This document shows, piece after piece, positions 7,530 through 26,100 of a stretch of DNA of 64,000 bases; the first letter of the stretch is position 1, and each line of letters opens with the position of its first letter. Origin of the DNA: Caenorhabditis elegans (lineage: Eukaryota > Nematoda > Chromadorea > Rhabditida > Rhabditidae); assembly GCF_000002985.6 (NCBI RefSeq), contig NC_003283.11, forward strand, positions 13,516,001 through 13,580,000. The letters run 5' to 3'. Both the position numbers and the translations under genes were made by a program. The notes under the pieces are model-generated. The model searched no databases. It was not told the DNA's origin and saw only the letters and a list, made by a program, of their open reading frames with translations.

Positions 7530-10500
7530 ATGTTGGGCTTGGAAAGTAATTCCCCAAACTGCACATCAGAAGCTCAATGGTTTGTTGGCATCTACACTGT
7601 CGCCATTTACGCTCCATTGGCATTAATCTATATTGTGGTGGCCAGTCTTTTCATAAGACATCCCAATGTTTTTCATCCATTATTCGTGTAAGTTTTTCTT
7701 CTTTCATGGGATTTGCTAGTTTCCATTTAGTTTCCATAATTATTGAATATCCTGTAAACTTTCAGAATATCATTCTTTTTGGTTTTACTTGCCCACACCA
7801 CATCCAACTTTATCCTATTCTTTCGGAACCTTTTAGAATTCTTCTTCATTAATCAGCTATTATTTTCTATACTTGAATTCATTTTAATATCTGCTAATTA
7901 TTATACTCAACCAATTGTGATTCTGGCACTGTTGGAACGTCTAGCAGCTACAGTTTTTGTGTCAAATTATGAAAAATCATGTCAATGGGTACCTTATATT
8001 TGCGGTCAATTCATTTGTGTAAGTTCTCTTTTTATAAAACCTCAAAAACGAGCTAGAATTTCAGATTGTATTCGTAGTTCTTATGAGCCTATACCAACAC
8101 GAAGAATCATTTGTGAATAATATTCAAGTGGCTCTTTCATTTGTAATATGTTTGGTAAGTATGAAAAAGTTGAAAAAATATAATGATTTTTAATATTTTA
8201 CAGTGTCTCGTTGTTTTGTTTCTGGTGAACCGGTACAAAACAGCAAACTCAGTTGGAAAGTCGACTTTGACAACTAGATATCAATTGGCTGAAAACATCA
8301 AAGCATTGAGGTACAACATTTTGATGAGATTTTAAACACACAATTGCTTTCCAACTGTCACAGTTACAGCCGCAATTGTTTTTTTTAATTGTCAAATTAC
8401 CGTCGGAAAGTTGTAACAGGTTTTTCTGAATGTAGTTGAGTTCAGAAGCAGCTAGAAAATTGATTCTCAATAATTGTATAATTGCAAGCAAATTAAACTC
8501 GTTAGAATTTGCCACCTTTAAAAATGATTAAAGGACGATCCGTTCTTCAAGTGCTATGCATGCGGATCTGGGATTCAGGTACACTGCCTGGTGGTGATCC
8601 CTCTGGGCTGTAATTTAAGCCACGTCCTAGCCGGGGATGTGGCCGATAATCCATTGCTCCACTTCCCAATAGAGGCTGGGTGAACCTAGGGGGTGAGGCC
8701 GGACTTGAACTCGTGACCTCCAGACTGCTAGCGGCCACCACTACACAGGTAAACCGCGACATGCGAGCAACTGGTGAATAACGAACGAACAGCCGCTAAC
8801 ACGCGAATATCTGGTCAATTACTGACGAAAAACCGCAAACATGCGAAAAACTGTTCAGTACCGGACGAATTATTTTTGCTTGATTTTGAGAAGAACCGCT
8901 TCCGGTGAGGATTGCGCGAAAGTAAGATGAGTAATTGAAATGGGTGACAAAATATTTTCAGCAAACTTTTTCGAACCGGGACACAAGAATTTTCGGTGAA
9001 TATCCGGCCGCCGACAGACGAGCGTCGGATGAACCAAGTAGTAGCCTACGAAGAAGTTGGGAATAGATACTAACTAGTTCAACTGATGAATCCTTTCTTA
9101 GTACAAGTTGAACAAGTCTGTTCGAGTCTTTTTTTTTTGAAATTTCACTTTCACGATTTTTTTAAAATTTCACAAGTATGGTACGATTTCAAAATTCATA
9201 AGGGTACCCCCTTATGAAAAAAAAATTTGGTATTTTTTGGTATGAAAATTTTTTCCCAAAATTTTTGGAAATTTTTTGATTGTGTAGAAAATGTGTATTT
9301 TAGTATTTTCCACAGTTTTTATGGGTCAATCACACTTTTGGGCAAAAAAATACAACAGTCAATTTCGCTTGTTCATAGAAAGTGAGTACTTCCAAAGTGT
9401 TCTAGCTCCGCAGGCAGCTGAAATATGAAAAACTTTTCAATTAGAAAGTTATTAGGAATGAAGTGATTGACAAATTACATAGTGTATCTTTTTTCCATCT
9501 TGCATGGCTGAGCAGGTAGGAGCACCTAATTATGAGTCAAATATCACTAATTTTGACTGATGATATCTCCGTACTCTGCACAGAAAGCAATAAACTATTA
9601 AACATGAAACATGTTCCATAACAACTTGAACAAGTTTGTAGTTGACAATTTTTTGATATCTTGCTTGCCCGATGTGGGACATGACTTCGAAAAACTGTCA
9701 TAGTAGGTAGATCAGATAGAGGAATAGAGGTTTTTACAGTTTCTTAGTTTTCGAAAGCACCACATTTGGCAAGAAAGTACATAGATACAATTAGGAAAAC
9801 AAATTTTTACAATATCTGATGAATATTTGACAACTTTTGAAAAAAACATTTTTGGATTTTCTTGAAAAAAAAATCCATAGGGTCCCCCCTTATGAAAAAT
9901 TTCTAAAATTTTTTCGAAAATTTTTTTTTGAAAACTTTTCTTAATTTGTTTATATGTTATAGAAAAATGTAAATTTGATTGTTTTTTTTTAGTTTCGATG
10001 TTCAGAGCACGATTTCAGACGAAAACCTGGGGTTCAGTAGAACCCCTAAGTTCAAAAAACGCATTTCCTTTGGATGCGTATATCTTTGTTGAAAAATTTT
10101 TTCTGACAAAGTGATCAACTACAAAGTTGTTCATCTTAATCTAAAGTACAACTTTGTAGTTGATGGTATTTTTCAAAAAAATTGATGGCCGAGATATGAA
10201 CAGAAAAAGACGAAGAAAATACAGGCATGAAAGTGCCGCAATTAACACAACTTTATCTCGACCATCAAATTTTTTGAAGAAATATCAGCAACTACAAAAT
10301 TGTACTTCAGATTAAAATAAACAACTTTGTAGTTGATCACTTTGTCAGAAAAAATTTTTCAACAAAGATATACGCATCCAAAGGAAATGCGTTTTTTGAA
10401 CTTAGGGGTTCTACTGAACCCCAGGTTTTCGTCTGAAATCGTGCTCTGAACATCGAAACTAAAAAAAACAATCAAATTTACATTTTTCTATAACATATAA

Positions 10501-13500
10501 ACAAATTAAGAAAAGTTTTCAAAAAAAAATTTTCGAAAAAATTTTAGAAATTTTTCATAAGGGGGGACCCTATGGATTTTTTTTTCAAGAAAATCCAAAA
10601 ATGTTTTTTTCAAAAGTTGTCAAATATTCATCAGATATTGTAAAAATTTGTTTTCCTAATTGTATCTATGTACTTTCTTGCCAAATGTGGTGCTTTCGAA
10701 AACTAAGAAACTGTAAAAACCTCTATTCCTCTATCTGATCTACCTACTATGACAGTTTTTCGAAGTCATGTCCCACATCGGGCAAGCAAGATATCAAAAA
10801 ATTGTCAACTACAAACTTGTTCAAGTTGTTATGGAACATGTTTCATGTTTAATAGTTTATTGCTTTCTGTGCAGAGTATGGAGATATCATCAGTCAAAAT
10901 TAGTGATATTTGGCTCATAATTAGGTGCTCCTACCTGCTCAGCCATGCAAGATGGAAAAAAAGATACACTATGTAATTTGTCAATCACTTCATTCCTAAT
11001 AACTTCCTAATTGAAAAGTTTTTCATATTTCAGCTGCCTGCGGAGCTAGAGCATTTTGGAAGTACTGACTTTCTATGAACAAGCCAAATCGACTATTGTA
11101 TTTTTTTGCCCAGGAGTATGATTGTGCTATGAAAACTGTGGAAAATACTAAAATATACATTTCCTACACAATCCAGCAGTATTACAATTTTTTGGAAGAA
11201 AATTTTTTTCCCAAAATTTTTTCATAAGGGGTGACCCTTATCAAAATTTCAAAATTAATGGAAAATATTTTTAATTAAATTTTTATTGAATTCAATTTTT
11301 TTTCAATTATTTGTTGGTTTCACTCACAAATCACATTTACGACTCAAAGTGATTTTTTCTTTTCTACTACTTCAATATAAGAGCGAGAAAGCATTTCAAA
11401 AGAAGCTCCAAACGCAGATGGCAACGACACTCCGAAATAACGGTACCGCGCCCTCTTTACCGTAAATCCCTCTCATTTTCGAAATTATTTTTTCATGATT
11501 TCTTTTTCTTTTTCTTCGATTTTTCATAGTTTTCTTCAGCTATTCTTTGATTTTTTTTTGGCAAAAATAATTATTTTCCGTAAATATACTCGTGTTTCAG
11601 CATTTCCGACGTTGAGGCGTCGATTCATCCGCGGATCCGACACGGAATCCATCGGAACTGCTTCTGAAACTGATGCCAAGTAAGTTGCTGCCATTTTGAT
11701 ATTCTGATTTTATTAACTTGATTTTCAGCCAAACGACCTGGATAATTCTTCTCGATGCTCTTCCATTCGTATGCTCGCTTCCATGCTACAATTAAAGAAC
11801 GGAAGTCGGAAATTTGTGCTCAATTTAACAATGTAATCATTAATTTTTTAGCCCAAAGTTTTATCAACTCGAATTTTCAGAATTAGCAGCACACTCCCAT
11901 CCAAACTCCAGAGACGTCTAAAGTTTATATGGAATCTCTCACCGGAGTGGCTGTTTGCCAAGCATCTTAAATTGTGGCTCCATTCGATTTTCCTATGATG
12001 AAAATCCGCCAAATGCTCAACGGCATTGAGCGAATTTGAGCCCCAATTGGATGAACCGGAAAGCCCGCCGAAAATGAACGACATTATTGATTGGAAAACT
12101 TGGAAAACGGTTGGTTTTGTTGATAAAATATTCGAAAAGTTCCTGGATTCTCGATAACAAACTACAATTTTTCAGAGAAACTGTGAATCTCGTCGTAATC
12201 CCAGTTTTTATCGTCATCGTCAAGTAGCCGGGACAGTTGCACCGAAATCGCCTCTAATTCATTATAGTCATCACACTGGAGATGGATGCAATTCCAATTT
12301 GTGAATATATCTCCGAATGTGACTCACCGAGCAACAGTTAAATTGGGCAAATCAGGATAATGTGATCGACGAGGCTCCACCACTAAACACGCCCACGTGG
12401 ACTGTGCTATTCGTCAACTGGACGATTATTCATCACGTAAGAAAAATAGTTGAAACTTAATTAAAAACCATTTTTTGTTTTCAGCGGCTTCAACAATCAC
12501 CGACTCCTGCCGCCTCGTGGCCTCGAAACGTGTGAGAGAACAACGGAGAAGTGGACATACATCAACCAACCCGTCGCCATCCGATTAATTTTCGTTTTTT
12601 TTTTTCAAATTTTATTTTATTTTTTGTAAAATAAAAATTTGTATGAACTATCAATTGTTATTAATGAACCGCAAATTCCAAATATATGGCGAATAACGGG
12701 GTGGCAGCTAGCTGGGCATTCGCGCGTCTTCATCATTTACCGGTCCGTTTTTCGCCAGTTCTTCATCGAATAGCGGCCCGCGCTTCACCGAAGCCATGTA
12801 CCTTTTTCGCGAAATAGCGGCCCGTCACCCGACGAATATTCGCATGTCGCGGTTTACCTGTGTACCGACTGAGCTATCTGCCCACTAATGTCAAAAAGAT
12901 CAAAAACCTCAATGAACCGTGGCAATATTTGGCATCTATTTGGTAACTAATTTCATAAATTTTTACAGGTAAAATTTTACCTATTTCCAGGAAGTTGTAA
13001 TTTTTTATAACGCCATAACTGCATAATTGGTGAATTTCAGAAATTTTGACAATTCGCAATTTTCTGGAGTTGTAGTAAATTCCGCTTACCCCTTACTAAA
13101 TTTGATTTTTTTTATCTAATTTTTGTCACATAACAAAAGACCACGACATTCAAAGCATTCAAAAAAATTTTTTTTTTCAGGATATTTGTGCCATTTATTG
13201 TACTTGACAATGTTATATCATTGATGTTCGTAATCACTAGCTACACAATATCAATAGCTAGAAAGTTCGATGAGGACGAATGCAACAAAGATCCTCGTTA
13301 TGTGCCTATTTTTATAGTCTTCCGAACGGTTCGTCGCTCACAATTTTTCATTTTTATTCTCGTAAGCACTTCAGATAGCAATAATAATTCAAATCTCAAT
13401 GGCTGTAATAGTTGTCTACATGCATGAGTCGATGAAACTCTGGAGCTTCAAAGATTGTTACCGAAGTAATCGGTCACAAGACGTTAGTATCACAATGGTT

Positions 13501-23100: not shown

Positions 23101-26100
23101 TTCCCATGTCGAGAAATGTAAAAAAAATTGCGAATTTCGCGTCATTTCGCTGCTTACTTGCATTGCAAAAAAAATTGTCGAGAAATGTAGAAAAATTCAC
23201 TTGCATCATCCCATAAAAAATTGAAACCTCGCTGTGTTTCTCTATGGTAATTTTCAAGGATTAACCCGAGAATTCTTATATGTTATGATGAGTAGAAAAT
23301 GGAGTAGTAATGTAGATGTCAACACAAGAAGGACACAAAAGAAAATGAGTAGATGCTCCGAGGGAGGGGTGGATGGATAATTCAAAACATAATAACTGGA
23401 AACCAAAGGAACGAGGATGTTCCTTTTATTTTTTCTTTCTACGCAAACGGAAGACATTCGGAGAATTTCTTCGTTTTTACGCTTCTAGCGAGATTTATAG
23501 ACGATGATCTAGAAAAGAGTGACGAAAGTTATTTCAAAGTGGAATGGGAACGCTTGGAAGGATGTGACCCTGGTAGCTCACATTGAAACGAAAAAATATT
23601 TCCAATAAACACAGATATCAATTTTAAGGTGGAGTAGTGCCAGTGAATAAATTTTTGGAAACCACTCATGACCAAATATCATAGTAAAACTTCAAAAATG
23701 GTTTAAAAATTTTTAGTGACAAACAAAAAGTGGCAATTACTGAGTTTTTGCGACTTTTAAAAAAAAAACTATGGCGCTGTCACATGTTTGAAACCCTACA
23801 TTGTTTGAATATTAATATTTAAAATATAAATAGACCATAAAATCCGAAGGAAATCTTTTTTTTTTTTTGAATTTTTTCACTATGTTTTTTTTTTTAATTT
23901 TAGGTGAACTGAGATTCTTGTTTCGACAAGAAAACCTCTTTTTGGTGGGAAAACAGTTTATCTTTGGAACATGATTCCCTAATTTGTTTTTCTTAGATTC
24001 AAAATTTACCAGTTTTCCTTTGCCAATGAGCTTTATGAAATTTTTAAGAAACTTACAATAAATTCAATTGCGAAGTCTTTCAAAAATATTCAGATTTTCA
24101 ACAAAAGTGTTATGTTTTGAACTGTGTTTTTTGATTTATAAAGATGAAATGAGATCATGAGAAAAGATCTAGTCGTTCTTTCTCATGATCTTTGCCAAAT
24201 ATAAATCCCACGGCTCCATCTTTTTGTATATCAAGGCGTATGTGTCATAGTAGATATCACAAAAATTAAGGGCAACATAGATTCAGAAGCCATATATTTT
24301 TTAATCAAACGACGATGAGAAAGAACACGTGGCTCAGCTGGTTGAATCTCGGAGCCCGTCCGTCCCGATTCTCTAACCCTGAGGGAATGAGAAAAAAGTC
24401 AAAAGCATGAAGAATGTACACCGACTCATCATCGACACATTTGTCATAAGCTGCTCTCCTCAAGCTTCAGAGCCGCGAACATCTTGATGTTCCCTCTGGA
24501 GCCGCAGCCAGCGGCGTGACATTTTCTGAATTATGCGCTGGCTGGAGCAACTGAACGAAAACGACAGAAAAATTAAGAGGAGGATTGAACAAAAATGACC
24601 GGATGGGATTGGGTTACCGTATATGGTGGTACCAAGAGTTTTGCACATAAACTATGACGCAATGAGGATTTTGAACCGAAGTATTGGTGGGAACATAGGA
24701 AAATGATTGGGTGGTGAATAAAAAGCGAAATTTGATATTTAAGGAGAAGCTGCTGTTTTATTTTGAGACAAACAAACAACTGGAACTCGAGATGATGATG
24801 GAGATGTAAAAATGGTTGAGCAGATGACCAATTGGGACACCATCAAATGTTCAAATTAACAATAGGATGGAAAACAGGTTTGTGAGCTTCTGTTGCTAAA
24901 ATAAGTTGTGAGTATTCAATAAATTTTCAGATGATATGACTACCAAAGTTTTCAAATTTTTGTACACATCTATTGAAAATCTAATGATGTTAAAAAATTA
25001 GTTCACCTAGGTTGTAGAGTTCTCACGATATTGTTTCTCGCTTACTAATTTCTGAAGCTGATAGTTTTCAAATGTTAATTTTATTCGACGATTATAAAGT
25101 ATTAAATAAATTCAAGCAATTAGATTTTCGATACCTTTGTCTTCTCAGACGGGCTAAAACAGCAAAAATAGTAATTATCGAGATGAGCACGTGGTCAATG
25201 AGCTTGTATGATCAGTTTTATATATTAAATGATTATCAAAGAATCACAAGAAATGAAATACACATACATATGTATCAGAATTTTTTTTCCATATTCCCTT
25301 TTGATTTCTCATTGTTCACTCAATAAATAATACATAAATCAAGAAGTCAGCTGCGTGAATGGAAGGCGTTCGTAGAAGCTAGAATAAAAAATAAAATCGA
25401 ATTAGATTGGTCCTTACAAAAAATTGTTGAATCCAGACTTGCAGTTAAAATAAAGTGGTTGTAGAATAGGGAAAGCTGAATATTTTGAAAATTTATTTGG
25501 GAAGTTTCAGTCAATAGAATTCCGAAAATGTGCTACATTTTAAAAACAAAAAAAAACAACGTAATTTTCAAACGGAACTGAATCATTGTTAGCCGTTTTT
25601 GTGCCGAAGTTGATATCGGGGGTTGGAGGAAAGATGTAAGTGGATATGAGATGTTGTCATTGAGCAGGTTAAAATGAGACAATGGAGTTACAAAGAAAAA
25701 GTACAAAGATCTTCAACGTAATTTACATTCATTTTTTATTCCTGGAAATGTATCGGAAAACATTAGAAATCATATTAGACAAGAGACAACATACATACAA
25801 AATGTACCGGAAAGAGGCTTAATTAGAAGAATGAGAGCAATTTTTTTCAAATGTACTTATAATATTTAGCAATTCTCGCGGGAAACAAAACATAGTTGAA
25901 TTAAGTCACTTAAAAAGTTTCGAGTCAGAGAATTTGATATTTTTCACATTATAATTTTGAATGTCGAGCGGCAAAATACAACTTTTTCTACGATTTATAT
26001 ACACTATTATGTTTTGAATTCGTAATCAAACATTATTAAGTTTCAAGCATGCGATGCTGATCTAAATATTTTTGAAAATCCAATGTAGTATGTATTTGAA

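Follow-up and report, generated by a model that had tools for sequence, protein, structure and literature searches.

We examined a 64,000-nucleotide stretch of Caenorhabditis elegans DNA (C5:13516001-13580000, hereafter the window; coordinates without a contig refer to it) and searched the whole genome of 100,286,401 bases in 7 contigs with its parts. An intron of a Sre receptor gene in the window holds a tRNA-derived short interspersed nuclear element (SINE) that has been split by a 4,119-bp DNA transposon, and the relatives of this transposon, which we call its clan, were found inserted preferentially in tRNA genes and tRNA-like sequences. The features of the locus are as follows.

8204..8310, plus strand: Sre receptor exon upstream of the intron (splice sites, frame and PF03125 match of the joined protein)
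8523..8743, minus strand: 3' part of the tRNA-derived SINE, B-box side (alignment to 20 intact copies and genome matches; its last bases are the TA copy at 8742-8743; start placed by eye)
8744..12862, no strand assigned: non-autonomous DNA transposon, 4,119 bp (ends, target-site duplication, further genomic copies)
8744..8766, plus strand: left terminal inverted repeat, 23 bp, CACAGGTAAACCGCGACATGCGA
9195..11244, no strand assigned: long palindrome (single self-complementary match, 92% identity; core 9288-11162)
11240..11611, plus strand: conserved clan module, ending just past an intron-acceptor-like GTTTCAG followed by CATTTCCGACG, with variable DNA after it
11694..12386, plus strand: captured host kinase-gene pieces (11694-11736, 11746-12022, 12036-12386), parent PKMYT1-like, 79-88% to C2:9714368-9715613
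12393..12539, plus strand: captured TRIM71-like NHL gene piece, 75% over 147 bp to C1:9336391-9336534
12584..12862, minus strand: conserved right module (the match starts at 12584 in both clan elements L009 and L018; by eye it has a poly-A-signal-like stretch ahead of the right end)
12840..12862, minus strand: right terminal inverted repeat, exact complement of the left one
12863..12883, minus strand: 5' part of the SINE with the A box (same alignment; its first bases are the TA copy at 12863-12864; end placed by eye)
13181..13361, plus strand: Sre receptor exon downstream of the intron (same evidence as the upstream exon)

The inverted ends of the window element are exact over 23 bp, or 25 bp if the TA is included, and the TA duplication lies at 8742-8743 and 12863-12864. 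When the flanks were joined with a single TA, they gave ...GCGGCCACCACTACCGACTGAGCTATCTGCCC, which over the junction is identical to a 70% consensus built from 20 intact SINE copies. The split repeat has the two hallmarks of a tRNA-derived SINE: on the minus strand it carries an A box (TAGCTCAGTCG) and a B-like box (AGTTCAAGTCC), and it has many dispersed copies, its left part giving at least 40 scored matches from 333 first-look candidates. The seven joined exons of the Sre gene match PF03125 (E 1.9e-11), and exons 8204-8310 and 13181-13361 are in frame across intron 8311-13180. A preliminary description of the locus, as a three-level nest of mobile DNA, had proposed this element with its 23-bp ends and TA duplication inside a SINE, with the Sre frame kept across the intron; the anatomy is confirmed, and the bounds then given, 8527..12884, need a small correction, the SINE running by eye from about 8523 to about 12883. 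Removal of the element and one TA restores an intact SINE, and the proposed order, with the SINE older and the element inserted later, is also supported.

The same ends recur elsewhere in the genome, as the preliminary description had asked to be checked, and led to 11 other two-ended copies (L009-L019). A search with the first 14 end bases, allowing one mismatch, gave 98 genome matches (50 forward, 48 reverse), compared with 10 and 14 for the reversed control; they include related subfamilies with CACAGGTAAAGCGC, ..AACCCGC and ..AAGCCGC. We took 20 further two-ended elements (L049-L068) and both ends of two more (L071/72 and L073/74), for a total of 34 two-ended elements, which are a subset of the end-pattern matches and were picked by their ends, not by their surroundings. 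Counts out of 32 leave aside the pairs L071/72 and L073/74. Sixteen single ends (L075-L090) and L020-L022 were read and stand outside the counts.

To identify what these elements had entered, we joined the flanks without the duplication and ran ARAGORN, which called a tRNA across the junction at 13 of the 34 sites (11/32 plus both added pairs). The calls cover nine amino-acid types: Ser-GCT, Ala-AGC, Ala-TGC, Gly-GCC, Gly-TCC, Thr-AGT, Phe-GAA, Ile-AAT, Pro-TGG, Asn-GTT (twice) and Val-AAC (twice). Four of the 12 joined sites of the window subfamily alone are tRNA genes, one for Ser, one for Ala and two for Gly, and this subfamily also entered the window SINE. We also scored the A and B boxes, placed such that the insertion site falls within the gene, and observed at most two mismatches at 23/34 sites vs 9/319 windows lying 150-350 bp off in the same flanks (approximate Fisher P 8e-21), and at 21/32 sites vs 2/2000 random positions in the window. 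The preliminary description had missed this target, namely tRNA genes, with the SINE as a mimic. The split SINE was itself entered repeatedly, by the window copy, by L066 two bases off and by L012, and by eye also at the single end L084, because it imitates a tRNA gene. A second tRNA-like repeat, possibly another tRNA-derived SINE, holds L009, L049, L051 and L062. By eye, this second repeat is also present at single ends L078, L080 and L083, and its A box reads TGGCCGAGTGG in both L009 and L051, and TGGCCCAGTGG in L062.

In tRNA numbering, the 23 well-scoring sites range from 0 to 47 with a median of 17, near the A box, and differ from a uniform distribution (Kolmogorov-Smirnov P 2.5e-5); position 47 (L063) was probably mis-paired by the box score, and the next highest is 44. 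Fourteen of the elements face one way relative to the tRNA and nine the other. The same position was reused in different genes: L011 and L057 lie at 9 of two Ala genes, and position 14 holds L058 in a Phe gene and L067 in an Ile gene. Target duplications among the 34 were 2 bp in 27, 3 bp in four, 1 bp in one and absent in two (for 32 of the elements, the test extended to duplications of 9 bp). The 2-3-bp cases carry 15 different sequences without a consensus, hence there is no fixed target word. We infer that the spread of positions and the wordless duplications suit a transposase brought to an RNA polymerase III (Pol III) promoter better than a reader of a fixed word.

Part of the interior of the element is host DNA. 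Most of 11694-12539, read in the preliminary description as decayed exons, is no gene of the element's own and consists of captured host-gene pieces: the window element matches the kinase gene first and then C1:9336391-9336534, in that order. The kinase exons of the C2:9714368-9715613 gene match PKMYT1 structures (1.9e-42), and the C1:9336391-9336534 locus encodes an NHL domain with a TRIM71 match (5.6e-91). Transposase remnants were considered for these exons and rejected, since they gave host kinase and TRIM71-type matches and no transposase match. Other members carry other cargo. L009 instead holds 1,881 bp of the C1:6449861-6451740 gene (98.0% identity, 7 gap positions), which matches NUP210 (1e-18), and L018 holds its end; the cyclin-A-like gene C3:9107554-9108618 (a cyclin-A2-like protein) is represented by pieces in members of the L050 subfamily. 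The four parent genes are presumably wee-1.3 (PKMYT1-like), npp-12 (NUP210-like), lin-41 (TRIM71-like) and cya-1 (cyclin-A-like). Their DNA is present in 20 of the 32 two-ended elements (kinase in 10, of which nine also have the TRIM71-type piece; NUP210 type in two; cyclin in eight), a count that covers only these four types of parent. L061, from another subfamily, has a section of the kinase gene that is for the most part different, with some overlap; it may stem from a separate capture or be one more remnant of the first. The stretch 11606-11694 occurs only in this element and at six other places, all taken as clan copies or fragments, and a genome search found no parent gene for it.

Host DNA lies between transposon ends, its parent genes lie elsewhere in the genome, and the window element lacks its own transposase (no tblastn match at E <= 1e-3 to seven transposase pieces), which are the features of a Pack-type element. 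Module 11240-11611 was matched over at least 100 bp in 18/32 two-ended elements; 17 of these (all but L061) reach GTTTCAG, with the DNA diverging soon after, and L009 passes into the NUP210-type gene one base past the common CATTTCCGACG. These alignments suggest a frame whose start and end are constant and whose host exons, in the middle, are exchangeable.

The palindrome proposed in the preliminary description is real and includes 501-bp arms that are 100% complementary. Self-complementary stretches of at least 100 bp were found in 24/32 two-ended elements, and 27/32, located elsewhere and differently ended, have the sequence of the window palindrome in common, which places it in the clan before the window copy moved. 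Its proposed status as a third arrival, specific to this site, is not supported, and a late insertion into the window copy was rejected on the same count. The core 9288-11162 also lies within 3.4-3.5-kb palindromes with different ends (TGGGATGATGCAAG..) at L098 (C3:4749300-4753000; 98% self-complementary over 3.5 kb) and L099 (C3:6982000-6985700), and L100 has about 1 kb of the core only. An ancestor of the clan may have acquired the palindrome long ago from another family. Elsewhere in the window, 23106-23213 has about 80% identity to the outer end of the L098/L099 palindrome family.

A candidate source of transposase is L050, a 6.7-kb element (C2:2018651-2025348) with clan ends, palindrome-related and cyclin pieces, and broken transposase pieces that are collinear with loci L069 and L070. 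These pieces have a putative C(2)C motif (CSRC in L050, L069 and L070) and by eye FNTDG...IWPVF...SVLDMDV, and by eye they resemble CACTA-like enzymes. The clan also has the CAC..GTG termini of CMC / EnSpm-like elements, and 31/34 elements have a duplication within their 2-5-bp range. Overall, the clan is probably CACTA-like, an assignment to superfamily that falls short of proof. L050 lies 77 bp from L014 (C2:2015499-2018573), a member of a different clan subfamily, and its left flank contains an A-box-like TGGCGCAATGG. L063 (C4:16261591-16268307) and L066 (C6:2166262-2172608) belong to a subfamily of the clan in which long open pieces lie on the reverse strand; one of those in L066 resembles a reverse transcriptase (RVT_1 4.4e-5, under the curated cut-off), which suggests a retrotransposon piece within the transposon.

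Our preferred explanation, to which we assign a probability of roughly 0.8, is that the window element is a non-autonomous cut-and-paste transposon of a gene-capturing (Pack-type) C. elegans clan that prefers Pol III genes, inserting for the most part near the A box of tRNA genes, of their pseudogenes and of tRNA-derived SINEs. The ends, the 2-3-bp duplications, the empty sites, the target enrichment, the captured host DNA and the common internal modules are all observed in the genome. The window element would be moved by the CACTA-like (CMC) transposase of relatives such as L050, and targeting would rely on contact with the promoter of Pol III genes or with the factors bound there, not on a fixed insertion sequence.

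Several points weigh against this explanation. Nine of the 34 sites score 3 or 4 mismatches, a level at which controls are less rare than at two or fewer (20/2000 at <=3, 190/2000 at <=4); L014 and L015, which have one flank in common, score 6, and some sites are not tRNA. By eye, single ends L077, L079 and L088, among the 16 uncounted, are not tRNA-like either. The sites are partly dependent, as the SINE (the window copy, L066, L012), the second repeat (L009, L049, L051, L062) and L016/L063 recur, and the 319 control windows overlap, so that the Fisher P is approximate. The 13/34 ARAGORN figure stands without an ARAGORN control, and one of its calls, L065 (Val-AAC), is borderline, one base past the junction. 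No new insertion event was observed. For the enzyme, Pfam gave no transposase family match to the L050, L069 and L070 pieces, the PF02992 profile had no match in any genome, controls included, and no H(3-4)H could be made out by eye among the broken pieces; clan ends were not found in the 6.0 and 5.7 kb around L069 and L070, save one 9/10 match within L070.

We considered whether the pattern might arise without any targeting, by random insertion followed by survival only in harmless multicopy tRNA genes. tRNA genes are redundant, which would favor such survival, but introns and intergenic DNA, the Sre intron included, tolerate insertions too, and nearby flank windows reach at most two mismatches in just 9/319 cases; we regard this explanation as very improbable. 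An unremarkable element that entered a SINE and later received a palindrome, the nest originally described, is improbable as well. The presence of the palindrome core within the differently ended L098 and L099 would fit a mobile palindrome, but 27/32 elements share its sequence at other sites and with other ends, which dates it before the move of the window copy. Of the nest, the order of SINE and then element stands, and the late palindrome and a reading of the exons as the element's own gene do not.

A stronger competitor, which we consider possible but less likely than not, is a transposase that reads A-box DNA directly and not Pol III factors, as proposed for Dada. The gathering of sites around a median of 17, the equal positions in different tRNAs (9 for L011/L057, 14 for L058/L067) and the entry into the SINE at nearly one place (the window copy and L066 two bases apart, and L084 by eye) are consistent with this idea, and Dada is argued to read primary sequence in the available text of PMC8869645. 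Sites spread over 0-47 (or 44, if the probably mis-paired L063 is set aside) and duplicated bases without a consensus speak against it. A targeting lineage in this nematode, with short duplications and a loose choice of tRNA gene, offers a genetic model in which to decide between sequence and Pol III factor.

The preferred explanation can be taken further, to a version that we think rather unlikely as a whole: the transposase might be tethered to TFIIIC or TFIIIB in the promoter complex of Pol III, a Ty1/Ty3 lifestyle reached by a separate route in an animal DNA transposon, and the cell-cycle/germline gene pieces trapped behind a constant intron acceptor might possibly serve as a self label against small-RNA silencing. 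The trapped types (PKMYT1, TRIM71, cyclin A, NUP210) are genes of the cell cycle and the germline. Ty1/Ty3 and the Dictyostelium TRE elements integrate beside, not within, the tRNA gene.

tRNA targeting is a rare habit for DNA transposons, and the clan provides a new account of tRNA gene breakage and host exon shuffling in C. elegans. Targeting of small-RNA genes by cut-and-paste transposons has been described for Dada, in the available text of that work, and the clan would be a second such lineage, in the best-known nematode. Among the matches listed (titles and abstract starts, with Repbase reports and most subscription journals outside them), none described a nematode DNA transposon that targets tRNA genes or captures genes, and an earlier notice is possible. 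The introduction of PMC8869645, in its available text, lists Pokey, CryptonV, CRISPR-associated transposons and Dada when it speaks of targeted DNA transposons, and nothing resembling the clan; in the available text of the two Dada papers (PMC3706591, PMC8869645) the word 'nematode' is absent from both and 'elegans' occurs 0 and 1 times.

As far as these two papers' available text describes them, Dada elements are, like the clan, DNA transposons of the cut-and-paste kind that lie within genes for tRNAs and other small RNAs, in many cases at nucleotides 8-13. Unlike the clan, which has 2-3-bp duplications, 23-bp terminal inverted repeats and nine tRNA types in 13 sites, they make 6-7-bp duplications, the U6/U1 types have no terminal inverted repeats, and each family uses mostly one RNA gene. 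Membership in Dada was considered and rejected, as the clan has no 6-7-bp duplication (27/34 are 2 bp) and no family-specific small-RNA target; the clan is distinct from Dada. According to the available parts of PMC12730594, EnSpm/CACTA and other CMC elements have CAC..GTG ends, duplications of 3 bp (EnSpm) or 2-5 bp (CMCT group) and a C(2)C motif. The clan is similar in its ends, its short duplications and a putative C(2)C motif, and differs in that neither H(3-4)H nor a Pfam match was detected and in its Pol III targeting, which those parts do not mention for CMC. MIRAGE1 (PMC5395297 and PMC5850821, in their available text) is also a C. elegans DNA transposon, Mirage being a CMC lineage by name, and is likened to the clan by name, not by sequence. 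With plant Pack-TYPE transposons, as presented in the available text of PMC8903248, the clan has in common that a non-autonomous DNA transposon holds host-gene fragments between its ends, whereas the nematode host, the long palindrome and the tRNA target set it apart. Finally, the accessible portion of PMC5911963 describes Ty1/Ty3 and the Dictyostelium TRE elements as homing to Pol III genes, with box B changes stopping Ty3 and TRE5-A; the clan likewise homes to Pol III genes, but those elements are retrotransposons and the clan consists of DNA transposons.

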